Source: Deltaproteobacteria bacterium
GTDB lineage: Bacteria; Desulfobacterota; JAFDED01
DNA: 64,000 nucleotides
Assembly (NCBI GenBank): GCA_019310535.1
Contig: JAFDED010000005.1
Span: 1 to 64,000, forward strand
Reading direction: 5' to 3'
Below the pieces are notes generated by a model. It was given only the letters and a program-made list of their open reading frames with translations. It did no database searches and had not been told where the DNA came from. Below are positions 9,201 through 59,220 of the stretch, piece by piece (the first letter of the stretch is position 1; each line of letters begins with the position of its first letter). The position numbers and the translations under genes are program-made.

Positions 9201-9420
9201 CTGAGCAAAAAGGGCAGAAGGCTTGACTCAGTCCAAAACACAGTGGGAAAGCGTCCTTTCTTTAGAAATTTAAGATGCTCAAAATTTGTTAGAATTATCT
9301 GCTTAGTTCAGAGAAATGCTTACTAATTACTCCATTGTAAAAAGCCTTTTCGAATAGAAATGTTGGACTGAAAACCATGATTCAACAAGGTTGAAACGTA
9401 TACACTACCACGATATCCAT

Positions 9421-9567
9421 GGGGTGGCCCAGACAATTTATTGTCTGGGCTGCGCAGCAGCAAGAGGTAATTCCGTTATTCTTTAATGGAGGGTTGCAGT
9501 GTTATATTGCGCCGGGTAAATCCTCTTCTCGCTTCGCGGCCCGGACGACAAGTCGTCTGGGCCACCC
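9421..9567 (+). repeat. Dispersed hairpin-ended element, copy 1 (diverged)
   Basis: ggggtggcccagacaatttattgtctgggctgcgcagcagcaagagg ... cctcttctcgcttcgcggcccggacgacaagtcgtctgggccaccc; same ends as copies at ~47250 and ~58391. Confidence 0.85.
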
Positions 9568-9715
9568 GCTTAACACTATCTTTGATAGTTTGGTTAGGGC
9601 CTTTGGTGTTCCCGAGCAATTACATATTACCAATTGATTGCTGATTTACCTTGATAATACTAAATTTTTTTCAGATGTTTAACTCCGGGCCGGTGATTGA
9701 CGAAGGAGATGGAAA

Positions 9716-43554: not shown

Positions 43555-43778
43555 CCTCGGGCCGGGGGAGAGACCATTACGGGGCGCCGAAGGGGCAAGG
43601 AATATTGAAACTCTCAGGCAAAAGGACCCCGGTTCACTGATCTTCTGGAGAGTCCGGTATTTAAGGCGTAGTCCTGTGGAAGCAGGCCTTTTGCTGTGTA
43701 CGCCGGCACCGAAGGGGCAAACCCGCATCTACCGTGATGTATCGTGGGTGAATCTCTCAGGTAAAAGGACAGAAGAAG
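43555..43778 (+). ncRNA. Tandem glycine riboswitch (gcvT element)
   Basis: Two aptamer cores: gggagagacc...gcgccgaaggggcaa...aaactctcaggcaaaaggacccc and ctggagagtcc...gcaccgaaggggcaaacc...gaatctctcaggtaaaaggacag, directly upstream of gcvH. Confidence 0.95.
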
Positions 43779-43820
43779 GATGTTTGGCGGACATTCTTCT
43801 TCTGTCCTTTTATTTTTTTT
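43764..43820 (+). terminator. Intrinsic terminator of the riboswitch expression platform
   Basis: aaaggacagaagaaggatgt-ttggcgg-acattcttcttctgtcctttt + U-tract (20-bp stem, one G.U). Confidence 0.93.
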
Positions 43821-45621: not shown

Positions 45622-47126
45622 CCGATATGCACAATAGGGAACTCGGCCTGCAAATGGATGAGCCGCTGATTTTCAATCGGGGGGCGCCCGGACGCCGCGC
45701 CTTCATTCCGTCCCCTTGCGATGTGCCCGAGGTGGAGGCGGAGAAGCTCATCCCTCCTGATTTGATCAGGGAGGATGTGGATGGATTCCCCGAGGTCAGC
45801 CAGGTGGAACTGGTTCGCCACTTCACCCGGCTGTCTCAGTGGAACATGGGGATAGACACTGCCTTCTATCCGCTGGGCTCGTGTACTATGAAATACAACC
45901 CCAAGGTCAATGAGGAGGCCGCCGCCCTGCACGGGTTCTCGGAGCTTCACCCCTGTGTGGATCAACGGGATGCCCAGGGTATCCTGCGGTTGATGCTTGA
46001 GTTGGAGCGGTGCCTGTGCGAAATCAGCGGCATGTCGCGGGTAGCGCTCCAGCCCGCTGCGGGCGCACAGGGGGAGCTTACGGCAATGCTGATGATCCGC
46101 GCCTATCACGCAGGGCGCGGGGATACCCGACGGCGCGTGATCCTACCTGACTCCTCCCATGGGACCAATCCCGCATCCACGGCGCTTTGCGGCTATGAGG
46201 CGGAAACAATCCCCAGCGACCGGCGGGGGCTTGTGGACACCGCTGTCCTGCGAAAACGCCTTGGCCCCGATGTAGCGGCCCTCATGCTGACCAATCCTAA
46301 CACTCTGGGATTGTTCGAGCGGGACATCCTGGAGATAAACCGGCTTGCGCACGAAGCCGGGACCCTGGTTCACTGCGATGGGGCAAACCTCAACGCCATT
46401 GTCGGGGTCTGCCGTCCGGGAGACATGGGCTTCGACACCATCCAGTTCAACCCGCACAAAACCTTCTCTACGCCTCACGGTGGCGGGGGACCCGGTGCGG
46501 GCCCCACTGGAGTATCGGAAACGCTGGTTCCCTATCTGCCCGTTCCCACGGTTGAGATGGATGATGGCCAATTACGGCTCGAGTACAACCGGCCGCACAC
46601 CATAGGCCGTGTCCGCTCTTTCTACGGCAACGTCGGGGTGATGGTCAGGGCCTACGCGTACATCCTCGCTCTGGGATCCGAAGGTATCAGGCGAGTCGCC
46701 GAAGCAGCCGTGATCAACGCCAATTATCTGCTGCAGCGGCTTGAGGCCAAATATCCGCCGAAATACGGTAGGCCATGCATGCACGAGTTCGTACTGGATG
46801 ACAGCAAACTGGCCCCCTTCGGTGTATCCACCCTTGACGTGGCCAAGCGGCTCATCGACTATGGTTTTCACCCCCCCACCATATACTTCCCGCTCATCGT
46901 CAGTGGAGCCCTGATGGTTGAGCCGACGGAGACTGAGACGCGGGAAACACTGGATTCATTTGCGAAAGCCTTGGAGGCCATTGCGCAAGAGGCCCAGAAG
47001 GACCCGGAGATATTACATCAGGCCCCTCACTTAACCAGGCTGAGCCGCCTAGACGAGACCCGGGCCGCCCGCAAACCCATATTGCGTTGGACCCCCGGTT
47101 TGTCTCCCTCTGGTAACGATAAATGA
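45618..47126 (+). CDS. gcvPB: Glycine dehydrogenase (decarboxylating) subunit 2
   Basis: Start overlaps gcvPA stop; PLP motif NPHKTFSTPHGGGGPGAGP. Confidence 0.95.
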   Translation: MTDMHNRELGLQMDEPLIFNRGAPGRRAFIPSPCDVPEVEAEKLIPPDLIREDVDGFPEVSQVELVRHFTRLSQWNMGIDTAFYPLGSCTMKYNPKVNEEAAALHGFSELHPCVDQRDAQGILRLMLELERCLCEISGMSRVALQPAAGAQGELTAMLMIRAYHAGRGDTRRRVILPDSSHGTNPASTALCGYEAETIPSDRRGLVDTAVLRKRLGPDVAALMLTNPNTLGLFERDILEINRLAHEAGTLVHCDGANLNAIVGVCRPGDMGFDTIQFNPHKTFSTPHGGGGPGAGPTGVSETLVPYLPVPTVEMDDGQLRLEYNRPHTIGRVRSFYGNVGVMVRAYAYILALGSEGIRRVAEAAVINANYLLQRLEAKYPPKYGRPCMHEFVLDDSKLAPFGVSTLDVAKRLIDYGFHPPTIYFPLIVSGALMVEPTETETRETLDSFAKALEAIAQEAQKDPEILHQAPHLTRLSRLDETRAARKPILRWTPGLSPSGNDK

Positions 47127-47204
47127 TAAAAAGGATTATCCTATTAGGTCAGCAAATAAAGCTTTTATTAAATTCTTATTGCTTAACCATTGAACCGAAA
47201 GCTG

Positions 47205-47478
47205 TGATTCAATACCGGCCGAACCTTAATGGCATTCAGGTTCCATGAGGGGTGGCCCGGACAATTTATTGTCCGGGCTGCGCAGCAGCAAGAGGCAGTA
47301 CATGGCTCGTTTAATGGTTCCCGGGCGCGGGGTGCACCGGGCAAAACCTCTTGCCGCTTCGCGACCCGGACGACAAGTCGTCCGGGCCACCCCAACAACA
47401 TCCTGCATCTATTATTGGCGGCAATTTGACTGTAATATCGTTGATCAATATGTTGCTGATCAACGCGGATAATTCTAA
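47205..47478 (+). repeat. Dispersed hairpin-ended element, copy 2 (core 47250..47393)
   Basis: Core ggggtggcccggacaatttattgtccgggctgcgcagcagcaagagg...cctcttgccgcttcgcgacccggacgacaagtcgtccgggccacccc; flanks also conserved with copy 3. Confidence 0.9.
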
Positions 47479-47583
47479 TGATAAATAAAGGAAATTTACC
47501 GCAGAGATCACAGAGAAAGAAAACAAAAAATCTCTCTATATTTTCTCAGTATGCTCTGCGGTAAAAATAATAAGGAAGAGCCT

Positions 47584-58228: not shown

Positions 58229-58345
58229 AACAGTAGACTGAGAGGGCATAAAGAATAAATCCAGAATTTGCATGAGAACAACCATGCCTCGGGCACGACA
58301 AAACACGAAAAGAGAACAAGTTTTTGACGGGATAACAGAAAACTT

Positions 58346-58616
58346 TGATTCAATACCGGCCAAACCTTAATGGTATTCAGGTTCCATGAGGGGTGGCCCA
58401 GACAATTTATTGTCCGGGCTGCGCAGCAGCAAGAGGCAGTACATGGCTCGTTTAATAGTTCCCGGGCGCGGGGTGCACCGGGCAAAACCTCTTGTCGCTT
58501 CGCGACCCGGACGACAAGTCCGGGTCACCCCAACAACTTTCTTCATCTATTATTGGCTGCAATTTGACTATAATATTGTTGATCAATATGTTGCTGAACA
58601 AAGCGAATAATTCTAT
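58346..58616 (+). repeat. Dispersed hairpin-ended element, copy 3 (core 58391..58531)
   Basis: Near identical to copy 2 over ~270 bp including flanks; 3-nt deletion in the second hairpin (gacaagtccggg). Confidence 0.9.
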
Positions 58617-58647
58617 TAATTTAACATCTTAAACCTAACACCTTAAA

Positions 58648-58712
58648 CCATCAGCTAAGCTGATGGTCCAAGCTATGCTATGCAGGTTCGGTGGTGATCA
58701 CTGAACTTCCAA
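58648..58712. other. Pair of adjacent hairpins
   Basis: ccatcagct-a-agctgatgg (9-bp arms) and gttcggtg-gtgat-cactgaac (8-bp arms, one G.U). Confidence 0.55.
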
Positions 58713-58880
58713 AAAGCGAATACCTCGCTAAGAAGAGGGCGGGTGGCCCTAAACATCAAAGAGAGGTATTCGATGGGAGATTTCAAAAAAACGCCATCAA
58801 GATATTCGATATGCATCTGGAGCTAAAGCAAAGGTACTGGGGGCGGCATTTCTGGGCGAAAGAGTACTGTGTATTTACGC
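58691..58880 (+). pseudogene. IS200/IS605-type (Y1 HUH) transposase remnant
   Basis: IKIFDMHLELKQRYWGRHFWAKEYCV matches the characteristic ELKKRYWGRHFWARGYFV segment of IS200-type TnpA; no HUH or full-length frame present. Confidence 0.6.
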
Positions 58881-59220
58881 TATTCGATCGCAGTGATGGA
58901 TCACTTCCGTGACCCGGTACGTGGAGATTTCCTCGAGGTCACCATTCGGGTGAATGGGCAGGCCAGGGAGGTATCCGACGTGAATTCCCGGTGCCGGGGT
59001 TGCCCGACAGCCATCGCCTCCGGCAGCATGATGACTACCTTATATATATACACTCAGAAGATATCAACGAAGTTTCCTGCTTGACAGAGACGGACATTGT
59101 CAAGGCTCTGGGTGGATTGCCAGAGGGAAAGCTGAACTGCTCGGTGCTGGGGATTCAGGCCATCCGGGACGCCGTCGCCGATTACCTTCTTTATAGCGTG
59201 ATACTCCAGCAGGGGCTTGT
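58869..59220 (+). pseudogene. NifU/IscU-like scaffold domain split by a frameshift
   Basis: YSIAVMDHFRDPVRGDFLEVTIRVNGQAREVSDVNSRCRGCPTAIASGSMMTTL (frame 1) then IHSEDINEVSCLTETDIVKALGGLPEGKLNCSVLGIQAIRDAVADYL (frame 2); break at (TA)5. Confidence 0.75.

Follow-up and report, generated by a model that had tools for sequence, protein, structure and literature searches.

What kind of mobile element left the hairpin-ended repeat near position 47,250 of the window, the 64,000-nucleotide stretch of deltaproteobacterial DNA analysed here, and which transposase copied it? Read from the sequence, positions 47249-47393 hold two perfect hairpins and inverted ends. The 5' hairpin of this core is GCCCGGACAAT-TT-ATTGTCCGGGC and the 3' hairpin is CCCGGACGAC-AA-GTCGTCCGGG; the ends (47249-47295 and 47347-47393) are 83% complementary across 47 nt, and further in GCAGCAAGAGG is complementary to CCTCTTGCCGC. 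The terminal hairpins, the mutually inverted ends and the inner inverted pair, all claimed in a preliminary description of the locus, are thus borne out. When folded as single-stranded DNA, the 145 nt reach a minimum free energy of -46.8 kcal/mol (z -6.6, equalled by 0 of 200 shuffles) with a long imperfect stem as the favoured fold, and the single modules folded alone give -14.2 and -13.6 kcal/mol (z -4.2 and -2.9), which indicates that local hairpins and an end-to-end fold are both possible. The two mutually exclusive folds proposed earlier are therefore physically feasible, but the compensatory changes tested back the local hairpins only; the end-to-end stem arises because the core consists of two inverted copies of one module.

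This module is 46 nt long and is ordered as a GGGTGG foot, stem 1, stem 2 and a CAAGAGG tail. The core (47250..47392, + strand, 143 nt) is constructed from two such REP modules and a 51-nt middle. The left module (47250..47295, +; 48.6 bits with the REP profile) has its foot at 47250-47255, stem 1 at 47256-47264 / 47269-47277, stem 2 at 47278-47281 / 47285-47288 and its tail at 47289-47295, while the right module (47347..47392, -; 50.5 bits) is inverted, with its GGGTGG foot at 47387-47392. The core is accordingly a pair of closely spaced inverted REPs with the GTRG tetranucleotide of REPINs at the outer hairpin foot; GTGG-type REPs have been documented previously (PMC3116915, PMC6006769). Covariation, which had been proposed earlier as a check, was evaluated on an alignment of 32 modules, 30 of them from other genomes. 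Both stems covary, with two-sided changes in 12 of 13 pairs and 96.8% of cells paired, and the score of 0.536 compares with 0.156 for shuffled and at most 0.09 for slid alignments, so that compensatory change, as expected of REPIN hairpins, is present in both modules. The GGGTGG foot is invariant in all 32 aligned modules, and GGGTAG occurs in a few weaker ones.

Among 397 other genomes sampled from the same phylum, the module was present in nine, where it often forms inverted pairs with unrelated middles and flanks. The two modules of such a pair are on average 79% identical, and identity between loci is 70%. Stem 2 usually differs between the two members, as it also does in the window pair. 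Paired REPs at L094, L120, L123, L126 and other loci usually differ in stem 2 yet keep it paired, and the left and right ends may thus be distinguishable.

The association with a transposase was examined by searching for Y1_Tnp genes in the nine module-bearing genomes and for relatives of the RAYTs across the genome collection. In about ten loci, belonging to Desulfobacterota, Planctomycetota and Verrucomicrobia, a RAYT gene was found to have the module upstream (+) and downstream (-). Inverted flanking modules of this kind occur at JADFYC010000305 (L096/L120), QZKP01000012 (L093/L123), G312:C13 (L102) and loci L124, L125, L126, L127, L131 and L132, and at L128 the downstream module is represented by its tail only. 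The five RAYT proteins tested scored 112-123 bits with the curated profile NF047646 (REP_Tyr_transpos; cut-off 80). Together, the architecture and the transposase association identify the core as a REPIN. A second RAYT in genome G053 (L101, G053:C7) has a diverged form of the REP module, scoring 16-20 bits, at its flanks, which suggests RAYT-specific REP subtypes inside one genome.

The search for RAYT genes flanked by the same hairpins, suggested in the preliminary description, therefore succeeded with full-length genes in other genomes and recovered none in the window's own genome, whose assembly is 95% complete in 191 contigs. There, a profile built from the five RAYTs gave nothing significant (best E 0.3), and the best match of NF047646 was a 25.7-bit fragment at C158, which was rejected as the cognate RAYT since no REP module lies alongside it. 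The Y1_Tnp matches of this genome are fragments, none of them significant with the RAYT profile; the one in the window (58787-58882) adjoins an IS200-type end hairpin and has no REPs of its own. The cognate RAYT is likely, though not certainly, absent from this genome, because the missing 5% of the assembly could hold a REP-flanked copy.

If the core is a REPIN, the unit that was dispersed around it is a different one. Thirty copies from the same genome were aligned to set the element ends, and their similarity runs past the core as far as abrupt boundaries at TAGGATTATCC (left) and GGATAATTCTA (right), corresponding to 47131-47477, beyond which the flanks differ among copies. The exact-ended repeat is hence longer than the approximately 145 bp ascribed to it earlier, and is bordered by 8-bp target-site duplications (TSDs). 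In the window it is a 347-bp element on the + strand, designated MITE type A, with the REPIN at its centre. The left terminal inverted repeat (TIR) AAGGATTATCC (47131..47141, +; consensus TAGGATTATCC) is matched by a right one at 47467..47477 (-; consensus ...GGATAATTCTA), and the duplication ATGATAAA lies at 47123..47130, where it overlaps the stop codon of the upstream gene, and again at 47478..47485. Full copies are mostly 355-370 bp. A second copy in the window (58343..58615, +), with its 5' end missing, contains REP modules at 58391-58436 (+) and 58488-58530 (-). Instead of the three copies counted in the preliminary description, 40 copies of at least 84% identity were scored in the genome, from about 200 first-look candidates.

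Across the 45 copies having both ends, the left and right 8-bp duplications match at 78% of positions, against 31% when ends were shuffled among copies, and 88% of their bases are A or T. The element thus combines the characters of a MITE, namely TIRs, short length, the lack of a transposase gene and a TSD of constant length. Restored insertion sites fall within an ORF of at least 100 codons in 13 of 40 cases, compared with 87% of random sites; tolerance of insertions at such places could also account for the A+T-rich target and this intergenic bias. Other repeats adjoin MITE A. Three truncated left ends (L205, L218, L224) are preceded by a common sequence, TATGTAAC.TGACG..GGGCGG...TCATC..AAATTCATTGTAAAA, which appears to be an additional dispersed repeat fused to the MITE. 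Directly downstream of the window copy, an inverted repeat TTTACCGCAGAGATCACAGAGAAA / TTTCTCAGTATGCTCTGCGGTAAA occupies 47495-47565, and is probably another dispersed repeat, because similar ACCGCAGAG...CAGAGAAAG stretches adjoin the copies L021, L030 and L068.

The origin of the MITE ends is indicated by a degenerate element of about 1.5 kb (G000:C86) with the same two ends. Its interior contains remnants of a zinc ribbon and of an IS1595/ISXO2-type DDE transposase, with PF12762 (DDE_Tnp_IS1595) reaching 47.9 bits in the last ORF (cut-off 27) and 92 bits across two stop codons, so that the MITE shares its ends with an IS1595-family element, albeit a relic. Members of the IS1595 family generate an 8-bp target duplication, with which the TSD of MITE A agrees. 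No intact autonomous element with type-A ends was found in the assembly. Better transposase ORFs at C29 and C105 were considered as the intact partner and rejected, as no type-A ends belonging to them were found; the C29 transposase has a MITE A next to it, which is bordered by a near-match TSD of its own. The C86 relic also holds an IS200-like fragment. An IS200-like relic related to this fragment, with the hairpin AAACCATCAGCTAAGCTGATGG and the Y1_Tnp fragment at 58787-58882, is located at 58640-58900 of the window, just downstream of the second MITE-A copy.

Whether the REPIN is confined to one MITE type was assessed on an unselected 413-kb sample of the genome (the window, contigs C75 and C163 and the rest of C20), which contained 29 REP modules in 20 loci. 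Eight loci lie in MITE A, four clearly in MITE B, with two further ones having weak B flanks, and three in MITE C, while three have no recognised flanks; 15 of the 20 are thus clearly inside MITEs. Extrapolation from this sample would give about 230 REP loci genome-wide. MITE B, represented in the window by a copy at 9290..9662 (+; TIR TAGAATTATC... / ...GATAATACTA; REP modules at 9422-9467 (+) and 9522-9567 (-)), is a diverged relative of A with related ends and a related middle. MITE C ends in AGGRGTTACCCC / CAGGACTTTCCCC, unlike the ends of A, and inspection by eye shows apparent duplications of about 8-10 bp on either side. Direct comparison of A and C revealed only the two REP modules in common (100% and 96% identity), so at least two miniature transposons unrelated to each other have taken up the modules. 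Copies of A average 92% identity to the reference copy, those of B and C about 85-88%, and A is probably the most recently amplified, its mean identity being the highest. The sequence CCATG precedes the left REP in A, B and C alike.

In about ten MITE-A copies the core has shrunk to a single hairpin of 32-36 nt, GGGTGGCCCGGAC-8 nt-GTCCGGGCCACCC. Some of these collapsed cores have a left-type loop and others a right-type one, which fits deletion between the repeated arms on more than one occasion, and the collapsed copies have their own TSDs, which implies that the MITE can move without an intact REPIN. Copies L200, L221 and L227 were considered as clean empty MITE A and discarded, their REPIN being missing through deletions that also took flanking sequence. 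No clean MITE A without any REPIN, the expected empty ancestral site, was found among the genome copies examined, so we infer, rather than observe, that the REPIN was inserted into a pre-existing MITE.

These observations make it very likely that the locus carries a REPIN as cargo in an IS1595-type MITE, the remnant of an old REPIN population whose transposase is now gone. The earlier REPIN-like label accordingly holds for the core, by virtue of its inverted REPs, GTGG foot, covariation and RAYT-flanking relatives elsewhere, but not for the dispersed element, which is the longer MITE in a genome where no cognate RAYT was found. Since none is detectable there, a DDE transposase working on the ends of the MITE accounts better than a RAYT for the recent copying of the window copy. 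In the proposed course of events, a RAYT would once have spread the REPIN by making single-strand cuts at the feet of its hairpins. Long ago the REPIN would have been inserted midway along MITE A, a non-autonomous transposon of the IS1595 family, and it would have reached no fewer than two miniature transposons of unrelated kinds, the A/B lineage and C. The next step would have been loss of the RAYT, after which an IS1595 transposase, acting on the TIRs in trans, would have produced the recent copies, including the one in the window, whose landing site would have been the stop codon of the preceding gene. A bolder and rather doubtful extension regards the whole as a dual-mobility unit, in which the IS1595 DDE transposase moves the outer ends and the HUH-class RAYT moves the inner REPIN, and REPINs outlive the loss of their RAYT by repeatedly boarding unrelated MITEs as carriers.

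It might instead be supposed that the REPIN is still mobilised by a RAYT, unassembled or rarely acting, and that its location in MITEs merely follows from a preference for inserting into MITE DNA. Lying as they do among repeats, RAYT genes may drop out of draft assemblies, and three of the 20 sampled REP loci lack recognised MITE flanks. However, two of these three are partial and the third is a diverged pair, no such gene was recovered from the 95%-complete assembly, and all MITE-A copies hold the REPIN at the same internal position with the TSDs outside the MITE, a pattern that independent REPIN insertions would not produce; this explanation is improbable. Still less credible is the proposal that the hairpins are intrinsic to the IS1595-type MITE, serving for instance stability or transposition, and merely resemble a REPIN. 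Although most copies in this genome do lie inside MITEs, the modules flank RAYT genes and pair around unrelated middles in other genomes, MITE C with its other ends has only the modules in common with A, and the IS1595-like relic at C86 lacks the hairpins. A regulatory RNA, selected as a two-state switch, is the least probable of all, since, despite two alternative folds of strong stability and a position near gene ends, no Rfam family reaches its gathering threshold, sub-threshold matches to microRNA precursors (39 bits against a gathering threshold of 268) are found on both strands, with the appearance of hairpin artefacts, no terminator-like tail is present, and the element is dispersed with TSDs at unrelated loci. 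As a separate observation, a tandem glycine riboswitch (two Rfam RF00504 aptamers) is located elsewhere in the window, at 43555-43782, upstream of likely glycine cleavage genes.

The preferred reading, a REPIN carried by IS1595-type MITEs, bears on how such repeats persist. In most accounts, REPINs depend on a RAYT that is present in single copy and passed on with the genome, and about 200 REPIN loci with no detectable RAYT, mostly in MITEs of at least two unrelated lineages, would offer a natural way to test whether REPINs, as passengers of other elements, can survive the loss of their transposase. Meanwhile, the analysis defines a REP type with two covarying hairpins, together with its RAYTs in Desulfobacterota, Planctomycetota and Verrucomicrobia. 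The literature searched contained no description of REPINs inside MITEs, which is not proof of absence; the component parts are of known kinds, and the nested arrangement is new as far as that literature goes.

Known REPINs and REPtrons with a RAYT, or TnpA-REP (Bertels and Rainey 2011, PMC3116915; Nunvar 2010, PMC2817692; Quentin 2018, PMC6006769), share with the present element the inverted REP pair, the outer GTGG foot, the hairpin stems, the high copy number, the largely extragenic location and, in the other genomes, the inverted modules around the RAYT gene. They differ in that each REP here adds a second conserved hairpin and the CAAGAGG tail, no cognate RAYT was found in the genome, and most copies lie inside other transposons. 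The TIRtrons, or TIRYT (Di Nocera 2013, PMC3733652), are RAYT-type genes with longer inverted repeats on either side, some of which are double-palindromic and some repeated in the genome; the available part of that paper includes the planctomycete R. baltica among the species discussed and does not describe MITE nesting, and its double-palindromic TIRs may be related to the REP module reported here. MITEs of the IS1595 (IS1595 / ISXO2-like) family are similar in possessing the TIRs of a PF12762-bearing IS, an 8-bp TSD and no coding capacity, whereas the element described here carries a central REPIN as cargo. Finally, a physical link between REPs and insertion sequences is also known from IS insertion into REPs (Tobes and Pareja 2006, PMC1525189), but there the IS targets the REP, while here the REP pair resides inside the transposon and is copied along with it.
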